64,000 nt of DNA from Chloroflexota bacterium (GTDB lineage Bacteria; Chloroflexota; Dehalococcoidia; Tepidiformales; Tepidiformaceae), in NCBI GenBank assembly GCA_016191435.1, contig JACPOQ010000001.1:62001-126000 (forward strand), given 5' to 3'. How positions within the stretch are numbered: the stretch's first letter is position 1; every line of letters begins with the position of its first letter. The notes beneath the pieces were generated by a model, which worked only from the letters and a program-made list of their open reading frames with translations, was not told the DNA's origin and did no database searches. Below are positions 3,314-50,487 of the stretch, in pieces. Both the position numbers and the translations under genes were made by a program.

Positions 3314-4495
3314 TTACACCTCGAGGTGGTAGATCCTGGCCGAGTTAGTCTGCAGGAGCTTCTTCAGGGAGTCCTCCGGCAGGTGGCCGAGGTGCTCCTC
3401 TATGAAGTCCTTCGGGTAGACCGCGACCGAATTCGGGCCCGGCGACATGCTCGTCGGGTGGGGGAAGTCGGTCTCGTAGAGCAGGTTATCGGGACCAATC
3501 TGCTCGATCGCGCTGAGGGCGCTCTTCTCTTCGAACCAGAAGCAGGCGTAGCACTGGCGCTTGAAGTACTCGCTCGGGAGCAGGTCCATCTCCGGGTGCT
3601 CTTCGCGGCAGCCGCTGTTGAGCCACTGCCAGTCCATCGCCTCCAGCAGGAACGGCACCCAGCCCACGCCGCTTTCGACGGACACGAAGTTCAGCTTCGG
3701 GAAGCGGTGGCAGAGGCCGGAGAGGGTGATATCCATCAGCGCCTGCGAGTTGTCGAGGAAGATGGAGACCGTCGCCTTGGCGTAGGCGGCCTGGCGGCCG
3801 TTGTCGACGGTGACCCCGCGCAGCTTCGTGAGGTCGCCCGAGCCGATGTGGAAGTTGATGGACATGCCGAGGTCGGTGGCCTGGTGCCAGAGCGGGTCCC
3901 AGTGGCGCTCGGTGATGCGCGGCATATCGAAGACGTGCGGCTGGTTCGTCATGAGCACGCCCTTGTGTCCGCCCTTCGCGCAGCGCTCCATCTCCTTCAC
4001 GCAGAGGTCCACATCCCAGAAGGGCATGGCCATGATCGGGATGAAGCGCTTCATATCGATGGAGCACCAATCGAGCAGGAAGTCGTTGTACGCCTTGACG
4101 CACTCGTACATCAGCTCCGGGTCCTTCAGCGCGAGGAAGTTGCCGCTGCCGAAGCCACCAACGTTGGGGTAGATGACCTGCGCCCAGATGCCGTATTCGT
4201 CCATGCGCTGGAGCCGGTCGCGGGCGCTCCAGGAGCCGTGGTCGGCTTCTTCGAGCGAAGGCGGATGGTCCGGGGGCGGCTCTTTCCAGCCGGCCATGGC
4301 GGCGCCGGCGGTCGGCATGAACGGCTTGCCGCCCATGAACCAGCGGTCCTCCTTGATCGCCTCGTCGTACTGCACGTGGGGCACGAGCTCGCCCCACTTC
4401 TGGGTCGAGACGCGGTTGGTCCAGAGGTTCTCCGGTTCGGAGATGTGGCTATCCGCATCGATGACCTTGATGCGCTCGACGACCGTCGCTGCCAT
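3314..4495 (-). CDS. Amidohydrolase-family (ACMSD-like, amidohydrolase 2) protein
   Basis: 393 residues, convergent with the thiolase/DUF35 pair. The amidohydrolase_2 fold is indicated by VIDADSHISEP at residues 11-21 (metal ligand motif DxDxH), a central SINFHIGSGD with the expected His ligand, and YETDFPHPTS near residue 345 with the final Asp and downstream His. An insertion at about 40-95 containing PPPDHPPSLEE is typical of a subgroup common in environmental high-GC genomes. Members decarboxylate or hydrolyse ring-cleavage-type acids; the substrate here is unknown. Context suggests a step in the same degradative block. Confidence 0.85.
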   Translation of the reverse strand: MAATVVERIKVIDADSHISEPENLWTNRVSTQKWGELVPHVQYDEAIKEDRWFMGGKPFMPTAGAAMAGWKEPPPDHPPSLEEADHGSWSARDRLQRMDEYGIWAQVIYPNVGGFGSGNFLALKDPELMYECVKAYNDFLLDWCSIDMKRFIPIMAMPFWDVDLCVKEMERCAKGGHKGVLMTNQPHVFDMPRITERHWDPLWHQATDLGMSINFHIGSGDLTKLRGVTVDNGRQAAYAKATVSIFLDNSQALMDITLSGLCHRFPKLNFVSVESGVGWVPFLLEAMDWQWLNSGCREEHPEMDLLPSEYFKRQCYACFWFEEKSALSAIEQIGPDNLLYETDFPHPTSMSPGPNSVAVYPKDFIEEHLGHLPEDSLKKLLQTNSARIYHLEV

Positions 4496-10393: not shown

Positions 10394-10418
10394 AGCTAAT
10401 AGCTGCTAGCTATTAGCT
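10394..10418. repeat. Perfect AT-rich palindrome, 11-bp arms
   Basis: AGCTAATAGCT, loop GCT, AGCTATTAGCT. It lies between the convergent nitroreductase and nucleotidyltransferase genes and contains the stop codon of the latter. Related sequence occurs at 25648-25672. It could act as a bidirectional hairpin. Confidence 0.7.
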
Positions 10419-10746
10419 GTTAGAGGGCGGCGCGGCCCCGGGCCGACCCACCCTCGCGCGACAAGGACGGCCTCGCGCAGGATGCGCGGCGCCAGTTCCT
10501 CGCGCAGCGCCTCGCGTTCCGCAGGATCGACTTTGCGGCCGAGCAGGTCTTCAAGCAGGAGCTTCAGGTCCATAAAATCGGCGAAGCTGTGCCGGCCGCC
10601 AAAGTCCACGAGGACATCGATATCGCTGTCATCGGTAGCTTCGTCGCGCGCGACCGAGCCGAAGATGGCAAGCGATTCCACACCAAACGCATCGATGGCG
10701 GGGCCGGTTGTCGCGGAGGATCTTGAGCACCTCGGTGCGGCGCATG
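10406..10746 (-). pseudogene. MNT-type nucleotidyltransferase, frameshifted
   Basis: The product would start MRRTEVLKILRDNRP and continue AIDAFGVESLAIFGSVARDE, then DDSDIDVLVDFGG. This is the MNT/MenA-type minimal nucleotidyltransferase fold with GS...D-x-D catalytic residues. The two parts lie in different frames: a run of four Gs at 10700-10703 (CCCC on the coding strand) has one base too many. Downstream frame alone could start at GTG 10750, but that N-terminus (PCAAPRC...) is unlike the family. No HEPN partner gene is adjacent. The last residues are encoded by the palindrome at 10394-10418. Either a pseudogene or a homopolymer sequencing error. Confidence 0.7.
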
Positions 10747-13239: not shown

Positions 13240-13493
13240 AGCTACCACCTTTGCCCGCAAAGCGGGCGTCTCACGCTTGTACTCTACAGCATAGCGCTGT
13301 GGCGGGCATACGCCATTTACCGGCTGTTGCCGGCGCCCCGACACTGGCCCGAATCAGCGCGCCCGGTATGGAGCCGCGCGAATGCGAGCGCGCGGACGCT
13401 GGCGAACGCTCGCGGTGCCGAGGACCCGGGCACCGATGGCGTGCGTGACGGGGGCACGCCGCGGCCAGCGCGGTCAACTCCAGGGCAGGAGCC

Positions 13494-13523
13494 GAGAATC
13501 GAAAGGCGTGAATCTCGAATCTA
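13494..13523. repeat. Imperfect inverted GAGAATCG/AATCTCGAATC word
   Basis: A short A/T-containing word (GAGAATCGAAAGGCGTG followed by AATCTCGAATCTAG) spans the XdhC stop codon. A related word (ATTCACGATTCGCGATTTGC) is at 28681-28700. Confidence 0.35.
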
Positions 13524-13835
13524 GGCGCCGAGGCGCTCGACGAAGACATCCATAATGCCGCCGCAAATCTTGTCTTCGCCATCGGTGGGCTCGGTCAGGT
13601 CCACGGTGACGATGCGGGCGCGGCCGTCGCCGAAGGCGTCCATGGCTTCCTGCCAGACTTCGGCCTCGCCGCAGCCGCCGCCGATGGTGCCGAAGAACGT
13701 GCCGTCGCGGCGGACGACCATCTTGGCGCCGGTTTTGCGGGGGGTGGAGCCGCGGGTGCGCGCCACGGTGGCGAGCACGACCGACTCGCCGCGTTCCATG
13801 GCGCCGGCGATTTCGCGATAGATCTCATCCTGCAT
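13521..13835 (-). CDS. Single-domain XdhC/CoxI-family protein
   Basis: 104 residues from ATG 13835 (MQDEIYREIAGAMERGE). The XdhC_CoxI N-terminal domain is indicated by VVLATVARTRGSTPRKTGAK, FFGTIGGGCGEAEVW and the C-terminal DKICGGIMDVFVE with a conserved Cys. Full XdhC proteins have a second Rossmann domain; it is absent. XdhC/CoxI proteins insert or sulfurate molybdenum cofactor for xanthine or CO dehydrogenases. No molybdenum hydroxylase gene is in the window, so its client is elsewhere. Some genomes split the two domains into separate genes. Confidence 0.85.
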   Translation of the reverse strand: MQDEIYREIAGAMERGESVVLATVARTRGSTPRKTGAKMVVRRDGTFFGTIGGGCGEAEVWQEAMDAFGDGRARIVTVDLTEPTDGEDKICGGIMDVFVERLGA

Positions 13836-13883
13836 GAGGGGATCGTCGCGCGTTCGGGCGCGCGGTGCAAGTGGTGTGGCAAA

Positions 13884-13914
13884 AGTGCTGAGTCCTGAGT
13901 GCTGAGTGCTGAGC
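13884..13914 (+). repeat. 31-bp dispersed repeat, copy 1 (AGTGCTGAGTCCTGAGTGCT...)
   Basis: Built of the reiterated 7-8-base words GTCCTGA and GTGCTGA. The identical 31 bases recur at 40330-40360. A closely related inverted copy is at 14010-14040. It lies just upstream of the XdhC start codon. Confidence 0.8.
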
Positions 13915-14009
13915 TGGCTCCGCCGCTTGCGCCCGGGCTCGGCTATGCAGCCGAGAGCATCGGCGCATCGCGGACCTTCCAGCCTCGGCGATTGTGCGAC
14001 GGTAGCCCC

Positions 14010-14040
14010 CTCAGGACTCAGCACTCAGGACTCAGGACTT
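14010..14040 (-). repeat. Inverted copy of the GTCCTGA/GTGCTGA repeat
   Basis: On the minus strand this reads AAGTCCTGAGTCCTGAGTGC and continues in the same words. It abuts the stop codon of the prephenate dehydratase gene. With 13884-13914 it forms a loose inverted pair flanking about 95 bases that hold a small hairpin (13937-13955). Confidence 0.75.
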
Positions 14041-14858
14041 CAAACCCCGGAGGGGTAGCTACCGAACACCTTGACGGAGGAGCACAGCGGGCGGATGGCG
14101 GCGAGGACGGCGGCGCCGAGGGGGTCGTCTTCGTGGGCTTCGAAATCTACGAGGAAGACGTACTCGCCGAACGTCTCGCGGGTGGGGCGGCTTTCGATCT
14201 TGCGGCAGTTGATGCCGCGGATGGCGAATTCGTCCAGCACGCCCGCAAGCGAGCCCGGGCTGTCGTTGGCGAACCAGAAGGCGATCGCGGTGACGTCGTG
14301 GCCGGACGGCGGACGGCGGCCCGCGGAAAGCACGACGAAGCGTGTGACGTTGTTGGCCGAATCGCCGATACCGGGGACCAGGACCTCACCGCCAAAGAGC
14401 GCGGCGGCGCGGGCGGTGGCGATGGCGGCCGCGTCGCCGCCGTGCTTCATGGCGACGTCAACGGCGCCTGCGGTGGAGAGCGACGCCTCGACGGCAGCGT
14501 GCGGGAGGCGCGTTTCGAGGAACTTTCGGCACTGGCCCAGCGCCTGCGTGTGCGAATAGACGACGCAAATGTCCTCGAGCTTCGTGCCGGGCCGGACGAC
14601 GAGGTTGTGGACGATGGGGACGAGCAGTTCGGCCTGGATCCGGAGCGAGGTCTCGTGGATGAGGATGTCGAGGGTCTCGGCGACGGAGCCCGTCAGGAGG
14701 TTCTCGATGGCGACCACACCGATATCGGCGCGCCCGGAATCGACCGCCTTCGCGACCTCGGCGTGGGAGGTGCAGGGGAGACGCTCGGCGTCCGGGGCGG
14801 CGCGGATGGCGGCCTCTTCGCCGTTCGTGCCGGGCGGGCCGAGGTACGCCACCTTCAT
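14040..14858 (-). CDS. pheA: Prephenate dehydratase
   Basis: 272 residues from ATG 14858. The PDT domain occupies about residues 1-180: VAYLGPPGTNGEEAA at the start, GVVAIENLLTGSV (the .PiENs. loop), VYSHTQALGQC and NVTRFVVL (catalytic TRF). The ACT domain follows, with SPGSLAGVLDEFAIRGINC and the ESRPT motif (Phe-binding). It converts prephenate to phenylpyruvate in phenylalanine synthesis, with probable feedback control by Phe. No chorismate mutase domain is fused, so this is the monofunctional form. Last gene of a possible minus-strand unit with two TrkA-type genes and a universal stress protein. Confidence 0.95.
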   Translation of the reverse strand: MKVAYLGPPGTNGEEAAIRAAPDAERLPCTSHAEVAKAVDSGRADIGVVAIENLLTGSVAETLDILIHETSLRIQAELLVPIVHNLVVRPGTKLEDICVVYSHTQALGQCRKFLETRLPHAAVEASLSTAGAVDVAMKHGGDAAAIATARAAALFGGEVLVPGIGDSANNVTRFVVLSAGRRPPSGHDVTAIAFWFANDSPGSLAGVLDEFAIRGINCRKIESRPTRETFGEYVFLVDFEAHEDDPLGAAVLAAIRPLCSSVKVFGSYPSGV

Positions 14859-14880
14859 GGCGCGTGTTCACCCGTGCCGT

Positions 14881-14908
14881 ATGGGGGTATGGGGGTGTGG
14901 GGGTGTGG
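14881..14908 (+). repeat. Reiterated G-rich word (ATGGGGGTATGGGGGTGTGG)
   Basis: Repeats of the unit GGGGGTGTG/TATG lie between pheA and the trkA-type gene. Similar words occur at 40961-40998 and inverted at 41023-41051. Confidence 0.55.
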
Positions 14909-23003: not shown

Positions 23004-23183
23004 GGTCGCCGCGGTCTCGCGCTTTGCGCTCGGCCGCTGATCCACGTGTGCCCGCATTCGAACCTCGGTCATTGGTCCCGGAACGTGGGAGGTGGTCGCC
23101 GCGGTCTCGCGCTTTGCGCTCGGCCGCTGATCCACGTGTGCCCGCATTCGAACCTCGGTCATTGGTCCCGGAACGTGGGAGGT
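23004..23183 (+). repeat. Perfect 90-bp tandem repeat, two copies
   Basis: Units 23004-23093 and 23094-23183 are identical. Each begins GGTCGCCGCGGTCTCGCGCT and ends GAACGTGGGAGGT. The unit contains a CATTCGAACCTCGG stretch and a GGTCCCGGAACGTGGGA stretch. The identity suggests a recent duplication. Confidence 0.92.
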
Positions 23184-36753: not shown

Positions 36754-36790
36754 CATGGCCATTGGGCATTGGCCATTGGCTATTGGCCGG
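36754..36790 (+). repeat. Reiterated ATTGGCCATTGGC word
   Basis: Five near-copies of ATTGGCC/ATTGGGC between the htpX stop and its terminator. A related word is inside the anti-sigma gene at 21390-21420. Confidence 0.65.
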
Positions 36791-39543: not shown

Positions 39544-40344
39544 ATGCCGGGCATGGGTATGCTCGATGGCAAGACGGCGCTGATTTTCGGCCTCTCCAAC
39601 GACCGCTCACTGGCGTGGGGCATCTCGCAGGCGCTGCACCGGGAGGGCGCGAAGGTCGCGTTTTCGTACGCGGCGGTGATGGAGAAGCGGATGCGGCCGC
39701 TCGCCGAAAGCCTCGGCGCGACCTTCATCGAGCCCTGCGACGTGGCCTCGGACGAAGAGATCGGCGCCGTGTTCGCGAAGGCGAGGCGCGAACTCGGCAC
39801 GATCGACATCCTTATCCATTCGATTGCGTTCGCGCGCGGGGAGGACCTCAAGGGGCGCTTCATCGATACCAGCCGCGACGGCTTCCTGCTGGCGCACAAC
39901 ATCTCGGCCTATTCGCTCCTGGGGCTCGCTCGCGCCGCCAGGCCATTGATGCCCCAGGGCGGCGCCATCCTCACGCTCACGTACTACGGTGCCGAGAAGG
40001 TGGTGCCCAAGTACAACGTCATGGGCGTAGCGAAGGCCTCGCTGGAGGCGACCGTACGCTACCTGGCAGCCGACCTCGGCCACGAGGGCATCCGCGTAAA
40101 CGCGATCAGCGCGGGACCGATCCGCACGCTCGCTGCCAGCGGGATCAGCGGCTTCCGGGGCTACCTCAAGAGCTTCGCGGACCAGGCGCCGTTGCATCGC
40201 AACGTCACCATCGACGATGTGGGCGCGACGGCGGCGTTCCTCTGCAGCCCAGGCGCGGGCGCGATCACGGGCGAGGTGCTGTACGTGGATAGCGGGTACA
40301 ACATCATGGGCATGGAAGTGCCCGAGGAAAGTGCTGAGTCCTGA
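39544..40344 (+). CDS. fabI: Enoyl-[acyl-carrier-protein] reductase (NADH)
   Basis: 266 residues from ATG 39544 (ATG 39553 or 39559 are alternatives). FabI features: [20 protein letters not shown] (nucleotide loop with the family SxxxSIAxG-like pattern), HSIAFA, and the active site [20 protein letters not shown] with Tyr-x6-Lys in the FabI form. [20 protein letters not shown] and [14 protein letters not shown] complete it. It reduces trans-2-enoyl-ACP in fatty acid synthesis. The last residues (SAES) and the stop codon are encoded by the dispersed 31-bp repeat. Confidence 0.94.
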
Positions 40345-40360
40345 GTGCTGAGTGCTGAGC
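40330..40360 (+). repeat. 31-bp dispersed repeat, copy 2
   Basis: Identical over 31 bases to 13884-13914. It contains the last codons and TGA stop of fabI. Downstream, 40444-40471 is built of CACCCAG/GGCCCGG words that encode the N-terminus of the GNAT protein. Confidence 0.85.
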
Positions 40361-40430
40361 CGCTGCGGCGGGGATATGAAGCGCCGCGCGACGCCCCGTC
40401 CGGCCGACGATCCAGCAACTGAGGGACAAA

Positions 40431-40940
40431 GTGGCGGACTCGCTCAGCACCCAGGGCCCGGCACCCAGCGCGTCCATCCTCCCGTACGATGACGCATTGC
40501 ACGCGGGGCAACCGTGGCGGGTGGTCAAGGCCGTGTTCGATGAGTATGGCTTCCCGTTCGACGAGAACGACTACGATGCGGACCTGCGGGAGCCGGCCGT
40601 GCACTATGACGGCGCCACCGGCTGGTTCGCGGTGGCCGTAGACCCGGCCGGGCGGGTGGTGGGGACGGTGGGAGTGAGCGACGAGGGCGGCGGGCTGTTC
40701 GAGCTCCATCGTCTGTACGTGCTGGCGGAGGCGCGGCGCGGCGGGACCGGGCGGGCGCTCGTCGCGTGGGCGATCGCGCAGGCACGCGAGCGTGGCGCCG
40801 AACGGATGGTGCTGTTCAGCGATATCGCATTCGACAAGGCGCACCGGCTTTACGAACGCATGGGCTTCCGCTGCAACCGCTTCCGCTACGCGCCGGATCC
40901 CTGGCAGAGCCGCGAGTGGGGGTTCGTGCGGGAGTTGTAG
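40431..40940 (+). CDS. GNAT-family N-acetyltransferase
   Basis: 169 residues from GTG 40431 with GAGGGA upstream. The GNAT core is seen in FAVAVDPAGRVVGTVGVSDE, ELHRLYVLAEARRGGTGRAL (motif A, R/Q-x-x-G-x-G/A form RRGGTG), AQARERGAERMVLFSDI and AHRLYERMGFRCNRFR. It transfers an acetyl group from acetyl-CoA to an unknown amine or protein N-terminus. The first 15 residues are low-complexity and derive from repeat-like DNA. Confidence 0.88.
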   Translation: MADSLSTQGPAPSASILPYDDALHAGQPWRVVKAVFDEYGFPFDENDYDADLREPAVHYDGATGWFAVAVDPAGRVVGTVGVSDEGGGLFELHRLYVLAEARRGGTGRALVAWAIAQARERGAERMVLFSDIAFDKAHRLYERMGFRCNRFRYAPDPWQSREWGFVREL

Positions 40941-40960
40941 GGCCGGGTTGCGGCCGGGCT

Positions 40961-40998
40961 GTGTGGGAGTGTGGGAGTGTGGGAGTATGGGAGTGTGT
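40961..40998 (+). repeat. Reiterated GTGTGGGAGTGTGGGAG word
   Basis: Four to five copies of the 8-base unit GTGGGAGT downstream of the GNAT gene, related to the word at 14881-14908. Confidence 0.6.
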
Positions 40999-41022: not shown

Positions 41023-41051
41023 CCCACACCCCATACCCCCACACCCCCATA
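41023..41051 (-). repeat. Inverted G-rich word (CCCACACCCCATACCCCCAC)
   Basis: Inverted relative of 14881-14908 and 40961-40998. It ends 13 bases before the start of the small Cys protein gene; with 40961-40998 it could fold into an imperfect long hairpin. Confidence 0.55.
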
Positions 41052-41064
41052 CAGGATTTCGAGC

Positions 41065-49096: not shown

Positions 49097-50458
49097 ATGA
49101 GAGTGTCGCGCGAGCAGCTGGTGGCGGCGTTTGGGCGCGCGGGGTTCGAGCTGTGGGTCGTGGGTGGCGACCTGCGCGACCAGATCCTCGGTATTGGCGG
49201 CGGCGACGAGGACTTCGCGACCAACGCCGGCCCGGACCAGGTGGAGGCGCTTGCGCGGGCGCTCGGGGCGAACGTCACGACCGTGGGAAAACGGTTCGGG
49301 ACCATCGGCGTGCTGCTCGATGGGCGCTGGACCGAGATAACGACCTTCCGGGGCGATTCTTACGCCGGCGGCACGCGCTGGCCGGAGGTGACGTTCGGGG
49401 CGAGCATCGAAGAGGACCTCGCCCGCCGCGACTTCACGATCAACGCGCTCGCGCGAGAGGCAGGCACGGGCCGCGAGCTCGACCTCTATGGCGGCCGTGC
49501 GGATATCGCGGCGCGGGTCATCCGGGCGGTCGGCGAGCCCGAGCGGCGATTCCGCGAGGACCCCTTGCGCATCCTCCGCGGCCTGCGGTTCGCGGCGAAG
49601 CTGGGATTCGAAATCGAGCCGGCGACGCTGGCAGGGATGGCGGCGACCGTCGAGCTGCTGGCGACGCTTTCGCAGGAGCGCATCACAGCCGAGCTGGACA
49701 AGCTGATTCAAGCGCCGCAAGCGGGCCGCGGGCTGGAGCTCATGCGCGACGTTGGCGCCCTACCGGTGATCCTGCCGGAGCTCGTGCCGATGGTCGGGTG
49801 CGAGCAGAACCACTGGCACCAGTTCGACGTCTGGGGCCACACGGCCGCAACGGTGCAGGCGATGATGAAGGAGGGGCCGCACGTGCGCGCGCGCTGCTGG
49901 GGGGCGCTGCTCCACGACCTGGGGAAGCCGGCCGTGCGGCACGTGAAGAAGGATGGGGAGTGGGGCTTCTACCGGCACGATGCGGTCGGGTACGAGCTGG
50001 CGGGGCCGCTGCTCGACCGGCTGAAGCTCGCGCACAAGGACGCAGCCATCATCCGGCTGCTCGTCCAGCGGCATATGGACCGGCCGAACATCGCCGAGCG
50101 GCGCTCGGTGCGGCGCTTCATCGCGAAGAGCGGCGGCTACTGGGAGGATCTGATCGCACTGAAGCGCGCGGACAACGCGAGCCACACCTACGACGACAAC
50201 GCGTACCACGACGCACTGGAGTCATACTGCCGCCAGATCGTGGCGGAGGACGAGGCGGCGCTGCGGGCCGAGAGTCCGCTCACGGGGGATGACCTCGTAG
50301 CAATGTTCCAACGGGAGCCGGGGCCGTGGATCAAGGCGATCAAGGCGCGACTGAGCGCGCTCGTGCTCGATGGCGAGCTCGCGCCCGGGGACCGCGCCAA
50401 CGCGGAGCGCATCGTGCGCCAGAGTTCCGAGTTCCGGGTTCCGGGTTCCGAGTGCTGA
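49097..50458 (+). CDS. cca: CCA-adding tRNA nucleotidyltransferase with HD domain
   Basis: 453 residues from ATG 49097. Head: ELWVVGGDLRDQILGI then GGDEDFATNA (catalytic D-x-D), DLARRDFTINALA, and RFREDPLRILRGLRFAAKLG of the RNA-binding/neck region. HD phosphohydrolase domain: WHQFDVWGHTAATVQAM and ALLHDLGKPAVRH. It repairs or builds the 3' CCA end of tRNAs, with 2',3'-cyclic phosphodiesterase activity likely from the HD domain. The final residues FRVPGSEC come from the TTCCGGG/TTCCGAG repeat word, so the repeat has entered the gene end. Confidence 0.92.
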   Translation: MRVSREQLVAAFGRAGFELWVVGGDLRDQILGIGGGDEDFATNAGPDQVEALARALGANVTTVGKRFGTIGVLLDGRWTEITTFRGDSYAGGTRWPEVTFGASIEEDLARRDFTINALAREAGTGRELDLYGGRADIAARVIRAVGEPERRFREDPLRILRGLRFAAKLGFEIEPATLAGMAATVELLATLSQERITAELDKLIQAPQAGRGLELMRDVGALPVILPELVPMVGCEQNHWHQFDVWGHTAATVQAMMKEGPHVRARCWGALLHDLGKPAVRHVKKDGEWGFYRHDAVGYELAGPLLDRLKLAHKDAAIIRLLVQRHMDRPNIAERRSVRRFIAKSGGYWEDLIALKRADNASHTYDDNAYHDALESYCRQIVAEDEAALRAESPLTGDDLVAMFQREPGPWIKAIKARLSALVLDGELAPGDRANAERIVRQSSEFRVPGSEC

Positions 50459-50487
50459 GTGAGGCCCGAGGCCCGAGTTCCGAGCCG
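50422..50487 (+). repeat. TTCCGAG/TTCCGGG/GGCCCGAG word cluster at the cca 3' end
   Basis: Seven or more 7-8 base words in tandem. The first half is translated as the last 11 codons of the CCA-adding enzyme and includes its stop. Related to 22883-22935, 51621-51650 and 57841-57865. Confidence 0.75.

Follow-up and report, generated by a model that had tools for sequence, protein, structure and literature searches.

What brings the same short string of bases to several gene edges of one bacterial genome? In the window, by which we mean the whole analysed stretch of 64,000 nucleotides, the 31 bases at 13884-13914 recur exactly at 40330-40360, as the earlier note had reported (with two flanking A's the identity reaches 33 nt), and the inverted near copy at 14010-14040 proved to be 94% complementary. 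The same note saw these sequences as built from GTCCTGA and GTGCTGA words. This holds, the words being the heptamers AGTGCTG and AGTCCTG, but the repeat is not one of 31 bp: its unit has 7 bp, and Tandem Repeats Finder gave 4.3 heptamer copies with a period of 7 at each of the three window sites. A chance origin of the window repeats is ruled out by nine two-unit matches, where 0.04 are expected, and by dinucleotide shuffles, 0 of 100 of which reached nine. The features concerned are the following.

13884..13913, + strand: heptamer array, order G-C-G-G (AGTGCTG AGTCCTG AGTGCTG AGTGCTG AG), 48 nt upstream of the XdhC-family start and antisense to that gene
14010..14039, - strand: inverted heptamer array, order C-C-G-C, sense, beginning 0 nt after the pheA stop
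13884..14039, no strand assigned: the whole inward-facing array pair, taken for folding and for comparison with relatives
13521..13835, - strand: XdhC/CoxI family gene, downstream of pheA
14040..14858, - strand: pheA, prephenate dehydratase with an ACT domain (domain matches)
39544..40344, + strand: fabI-like gene for an enoyl-ACP reductase-like short-chain dehydrogenase (Pfam adh_short_C2, 1e-86)
40330..40359, + strand: heptamer array identical to 13884-13913, providing the fabI-like stop codon, with no inverted partner
40342..40344, + strand: TGA stop of the fabI-like gene, within the array
40431..40940, + strand: GNAT acetyltransferase gene, downstream of the 40330 array

One copy does carry the fabI stop, the TGA at 40342-40344 falling inside the 40330 array, and another does abut the pheA stop, the inverted array directly following the pheA TGA (14040-14042). 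That all copies lie at gene ends was not borne out: the copy at 13884 is instead 48 nt upstream of the start of the XdhC-family gene.

The genome from which the window comes (G000; 3.8 Mb in 98 contigs) was then considered as a whole, and every place matching three units was retrieved. The three-unit pattern, a 23-mer, gives overlapping matches, 42 forward and 38 reverse, which fall into 33 arrays of at least 23 nt, far beyond a few chance copies. Thirty of the arrays are perfect runs of the two units; the number of units varies, with exactly four in 19 of the 30. The order GCGG, i.e., an identical 30-mer, appears in 7 of the 19 four-unit arrays, between unrelated flanks. The binomial tail for this recurrence is 7e-4 if one unit frequency is assumed and 0.31, not significant, with position-specific frequencies.

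How are these arrays placed relative to genes? Genes were called with our own simple periodic Markov gene caller. The AGT side of 20 of the 32 intergenic G000 arrays faces the stop of a gene running in the same direction, and 17 of these 20 sit -15 to +6 nt from that sense stop; opposite-direction genes ended within 6 nt of the non-AGT side in 0 of 14 cases. In the congener G001, for which the statistics cover 27 arrays in 16 retrieved stretches rather than all 78 matches, 10 of 19 arrays lie -15 to +5 nt from a sense stop, and the other side is within 6 nt of an antisense stop in 0 of 13. The same asymmetry was found in three G+C classes (136 arrays in 119 named stretches, among the matches listed). 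With five sets summed, and with the count restricted to stops located before the array, since those within it could bias the result, the AGT end follows a sense stop at 0-6 nt in 31 of 64 cases, against 3.3 expected from uniform placement in the same gaps; the other end lies 0-6 nt from an antisense stop in 0 of 87, against 5.4 expected. Since the sense strand of an array has TGA in every frame, arrays in sense are confined to the gene end or beyond it, and those inside called genes are antisense without exception (14 of 14 in the named stretches, among the matches listed).

The arrays also have a polarity relative to one another. Inverted neighbours within 400 nt face inward in 40 cases and outward in four (four groups summed), the members of all four outward pairs being separated by over 200 nt. 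Of the 136 named arrays, 46 have a partner of the AGTNNNG class within 250 nt on their inner side and 0 on their outer side, about two thirds of them having no inverted partner (all among the matches listed); on viral contigs the counts are 12 of 36 and 2 of 36. Paired arrays often span the whole gap from stop to start. The sequence 13880-14049 of the - strand folds as a single hairpin (-105.6 kcal/mol, z -8.6), and six further pairs gave z values from -6.5 to -11.8. The lone 40330 array (40325-40440) did not fold above chance (z +0.6), and one arm of a pair taken alone was unremarkable (z -0.4). The arms of a pair are mostly unequal in unit order and length, and the interiors of the G000 pairs are unlike one another by eye. 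An intrinsic terminator is rejected for the pheA-XdhC region, 13300-14400 having 0 terminator-like sites of a G+C-rich stem with a T run, and so is a known RNA family: Rfam has no match at the window arrays, its one hit in the window being a tRNA elsewhere, or at 13 further loci. A fixed GC hairpin core was likewise rejected, TACCCCG-N-CGGGGTA being present in only 2 of 13 genomes, although this exact pattern is too strict for G001, whose gaps have variable stem-loops.

Are the arrays old residents of their sites? We compared G000 with G001 and with G002, a member of the same family, and had a usable orthologue in one or the other for 9 of the 33 G000 array sites, the remaining sites being not queried, matched by one flank only or matched by a paralogue. 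In seven of the eight alignable G001 orthologues the interval from -60 to +400 nt is free of arrays; the eighth, L178/L206, has one, and is not an unbiased draw, its G001 locus having been retrieved for its array. In G002 the array is absent from 8 of 8 orthologues, one of them matched by its left flank only. Among the seven sites empty in G001 are the fabI-like stop and the gaps between flgB and flgC and between pheA and xdhC; the flg and panB genes are those we take them to be from their sequence. Thus the pheA-xdhC gap measures 204 nt in G000 and, counted by eye, about 45 nt in G001 and 48 nt in G002, both array-free. The G001 fabI-like gene terminates in GAGGAG TGA with no array, and the last pheA codons beside the array are unlike those of both relatives. 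The empty sites show no consistent seed by eye, a similar run of bases following the stop at panB, and inspection by eye of six sites, aligned at 71-90% identity, revealed no target-site duplication. By parsimony the gains at the empty sites belong to the G000 lineage, and the arrays are for the most part recent gains.

The genome count, the identical 30-mers at seven sites and the empty orthologous sites support the view, already taken in the earlier note, of a repeat family that would have been dispersed by copying.

The family is patchily distributed. Among 61 sampled genomes six, G000 included, carry the three-unit pattern. For a comparison of 400 genomes of the phylum AGTGCTG was used alone, because AGTCCTG read backwards is its own rotation and a reversed control is then not independent for the two-unit pattern; AGTGCTG arrays were found in 11 of the 400 and those of the same unit reversed in one. 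The highest count among the 400 by a wide margin, 199 three-unit AGTGCTG matches, is that of another member of the phylum, G223, which would be a good genome for study of the family. Arrays were present in at least 119 named stretches covering at least 10 phyla, assigned from record titles. Among the matches listed 43 are cyanobacterial, including Nostoc and Calothrix, and the others come from Acidobacteria, Chloroflexi, Planctomycetota, proteobacteria, Nitrospirae, Chlorobi, Bacteroidetes, Clostridiales, Streptomyces, Synergistaceae and five unclassified sources. Most listed carrier stretches are metagenome bins, but complete isolate genomes (Calothrix) are among them too, which rules out an assembly artefact. 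Dense arrays also occur on a viral contig with head protease, capsid, tape measure and tail genes; therefore phage DNA is affected too. On the phage contig 3300005578_000008 of IMG/VR (L156, L162, L164, L168, L173) many gene gaps contain arrays and hairpins, and the L164 hairpin (about 3604-3664) separates two open frames, which correspond to early and late portions of one tail protein family.

Our search for an agent covered two families, the Y1 transposases and the reverse transcriptases, and found no mobilising element of the kind envisaged in the earlier note, neither family tracking the arrays. Y1_Tnp (PF01797) has three matches in G000 and is present in array-free genomes, but has no match in G001 with its 78 array matches; a Y1/RAYT transposase is thus not supported as the mover. 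In the 17 genomes searched, RVT_1 (PF00078) is absent from the carriers G000, G001, G002, G017 and G333 and present in the carriers G012, G016, G223 and G239 and in array-free G018, and a reverse transcriptase is not supported as the writer.

Heptamers of other sequence surround these arrays. With the query arrays masked, intergenic repeats in 17.8 kb of G001 had period 7 in 31 regions, period 14, a multiple of 7, in 13, and each of periods 4-6, 8-13 and 15 in at most two; in G000 periods 7 and 8 jointly lead, with small numbers. Among repeats not used for ascertainment, other exact period-7 arrays numbered 100, against 6, 9, 12 and 3 for periods 5, 6, 8 and 9. A frequent order in G001 gaps, read by eye, is stop, AGTTCCC array, AGTGCTG array, stem-loop, CCTCGAG array, CCTCATT array, pyrimidine tract and start. 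Some arrays of other heptamers fit beside stops and some do not, and a position next to stops may extend beyond AGTSCTG.

Several further repeats were noted in the window itself. A TGGCCAT heptamer array at 36756-36787 lies about 7 nt after the stop of an M48 peptidase gene, and a TAGCTGT/AGCTAAT heptamer array at 10394-10423 about 4 nt after a nitroreductase stop. At 50422-50484 a GAGTTCC/GAGGCCC heptamer run overlaps the end of the called gene 49103-50458, so that repeat units appear to make up its final codons. Octamer arrays of the GTGTGGGA/GTATGGGG type at 14879-14908, 40957-40997 and 41029-41052, the latter two mutually inverted, represent a second family of dispersed short tandem repeats, and a 90-bp unit forms a perfect tandem duplication at 23004-23183.

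If each site did not raise its own array, then we can ask: How did the arrays arrive? We favour, at a probability of roughly 60%, the reading that they form a short tandemly repeated repetitive (STRR) heptamer family whose blocks of three to four units were copied to new genomic sites rather than born separately at each. The empty orthologous sites and the repeated identical blocks argue for such copying, which would most likely proceed by template switching or strand annealing in replication or repair. The copies show a preference for sites where their AGT end adjoins a gene edge, most of all a sense stop or the bases immediately behind it, and where a second copy points inward from the other edge the gap becomes a long hairpin. 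Slippage would afterwards alter the unit number, and selection would retain the copies harmless to coding. No dedicated function would be needed to explain this pattern, though the hairpins may affect mRNA ends. Some observations count against the copying reading: neither an intermediate of copying nor an enzyme nor a target-site duplication came to light, the shared unit order is not significant with position-specific frequencies, the majority of arrays lack an inverted partner and hence a hairpin, and L178/L206 has its array in both G000 and G001. Also, the stop fit is sharper than we can derive from selection alone.

That every array was born independently, through slippage of DNA polymerase on a local seed and with no copying between sites, seems doubtful to us. 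Slippage has been proposed for the heptamers over-represented in many bacteria (Rehm 2015, PMC4692102), and it would suit the variable unit number and the other heptamers in the same gaps; yet it would have to yield the same two units at 33 sites and the same unit in unrelated phyla, from orthologous sites where no consistent seed was seen by eye apart from the similar panB run, and it does not account for the excess of AGTGCTG over its reversal (11 against 1 of 400 genomes). A miniature transposable element with heptamer terminal inverted repeats, served by a transposase in trans, we consider just as doubtful. The strict inward geometry, the discreteness of the empty sites and the insertion of pairs between genes adjacent in relatives are what such an element would give. 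Against it, only 46 of 136 named arrays have an inner partner within 250 nt (among the matches listed), the arms usually differ in unit order and length, the G000 interiors are dissimilar with no target duplication seen, and Y1_Tnp (PF01797) is absent from array-rich G001 and present in array-free genomes.

Still less probable is a functional RNA or regulatory site, that is, a hairpin or protein-binding array with a role in protecting mRNA ends, in transcription termination or in translational control of the following gene. The sense orientation directly after stops, the strong hairpins of paired arrays and the translational role proposed for TAACTGA repeats (PMC4679880) speak for it, but 13300-14400 has no terminator-like T-run site, Rfam has no match at the arrays, unpaired arrays do not fold above chance, and most orthologous genes have no array. 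A further idea, tentative and unlikely but somewhat better placed than these three, is that an unrecognised host-encoded activity, patchy across phyla, writes blocks of about four heptamers of the AGTNNNG class at gene edges, chiefly behind stops on the coding strand, and also into resident phage DNA. If true, both position and strand would be explained by R-loops that leave the coding strand exposed right after the last ribosome has passed, and carriers and non-carriers within one family (6 of 61 genomes) would offer a clean comparison for locating the activity. With one unit across many phyla, visible gains, fixed polarity and a stop-locked position, the origin of heptamers becomes testable.

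Bacterial heptamer repeats have been noticed for decades, and we know of no accepted origin or function for them. STRR heptanucleotides are bacterial repeats known mainly from cyanobacteria, and REP/BIME palindromes are moved by RAYT (Y1) transposases. REP/BIME and our arrays are both palindromic elements in intergenic gaps, but REP are not tandem heptamer arrays, and array-rich G001 has no Y1_Tnp match. In contrast to MITE, only part of the copies here have inverted arms, and by eye the G000 interiors are not shared.

The TAACTGA direct repeats of Beggiatoaceae (MacGregor 2015, PMC4679880) are, like ours, intergenic heptamers in sense orientation with stops in three sense frames, and both are patchy across phyla with horizontal spread suspected. 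The unit is another, and in the passages seen of that paper the TAACTGA repeats mostly precede start codons at a short distance, and the main genome has one indirect repeat only. In the openly licensed literature the array letters were not found in paper text, nor were stop fit within 6 nt, strict inward polarity and empty sites found in print for the AGTGCTG/AGTCCTG unit. Strict inward polarity, the 0-6 nt stop fit and empty sites were not met for other heptamers in the passages of the cited papers either, and to that extent appear new.

The earlier note did not recognise the kind of repeat; it is recognisable as a heptanucleotide STRR, whose placement resembles that of heptamers in Xanthomonas and Nostoc. 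For the GGGAATC and GGGGA(C/T)T repeats of these genera the passages seen of Rehm 2015 (PMC4692102) describe, as here, a 7-bp unit with four units commonest, on the coding strand 0-50 nt after or overlapping stops, on the non-coding strand upstream of starts, and some inverted pairs. According to the same passages, however, that unit forms G-quadruplexes, whereas AGTSCTG is without any GGG, and most of those repeats lie between the same genes in two species, whereas the arrays here are mostly missing from relatives. The units GCTGAGT and CCTGAGT both fit NNTGAGT, the class II repeat of the P6b stem in the Nostoc tRNA-Leu intron (PMC4476775, in part). On this fit we class the arrays as heptanucleotide STRR with a class II unit, a 7-bp unit being too short to show common descent with the cyanobacterial repeats, although the same arrays occur in the 43 cyanobacterial stretches among the matches listed. 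Whereas the Nostoc repeats sit in a tRNA-Leu intron, ours are genome-wide, in intergenic gaps at stop codons; as far as that source was seen, both share the NNTGAGT unit, a stem-loop whose stem is built of repeats and a copy number that changes in 7-nt steps.
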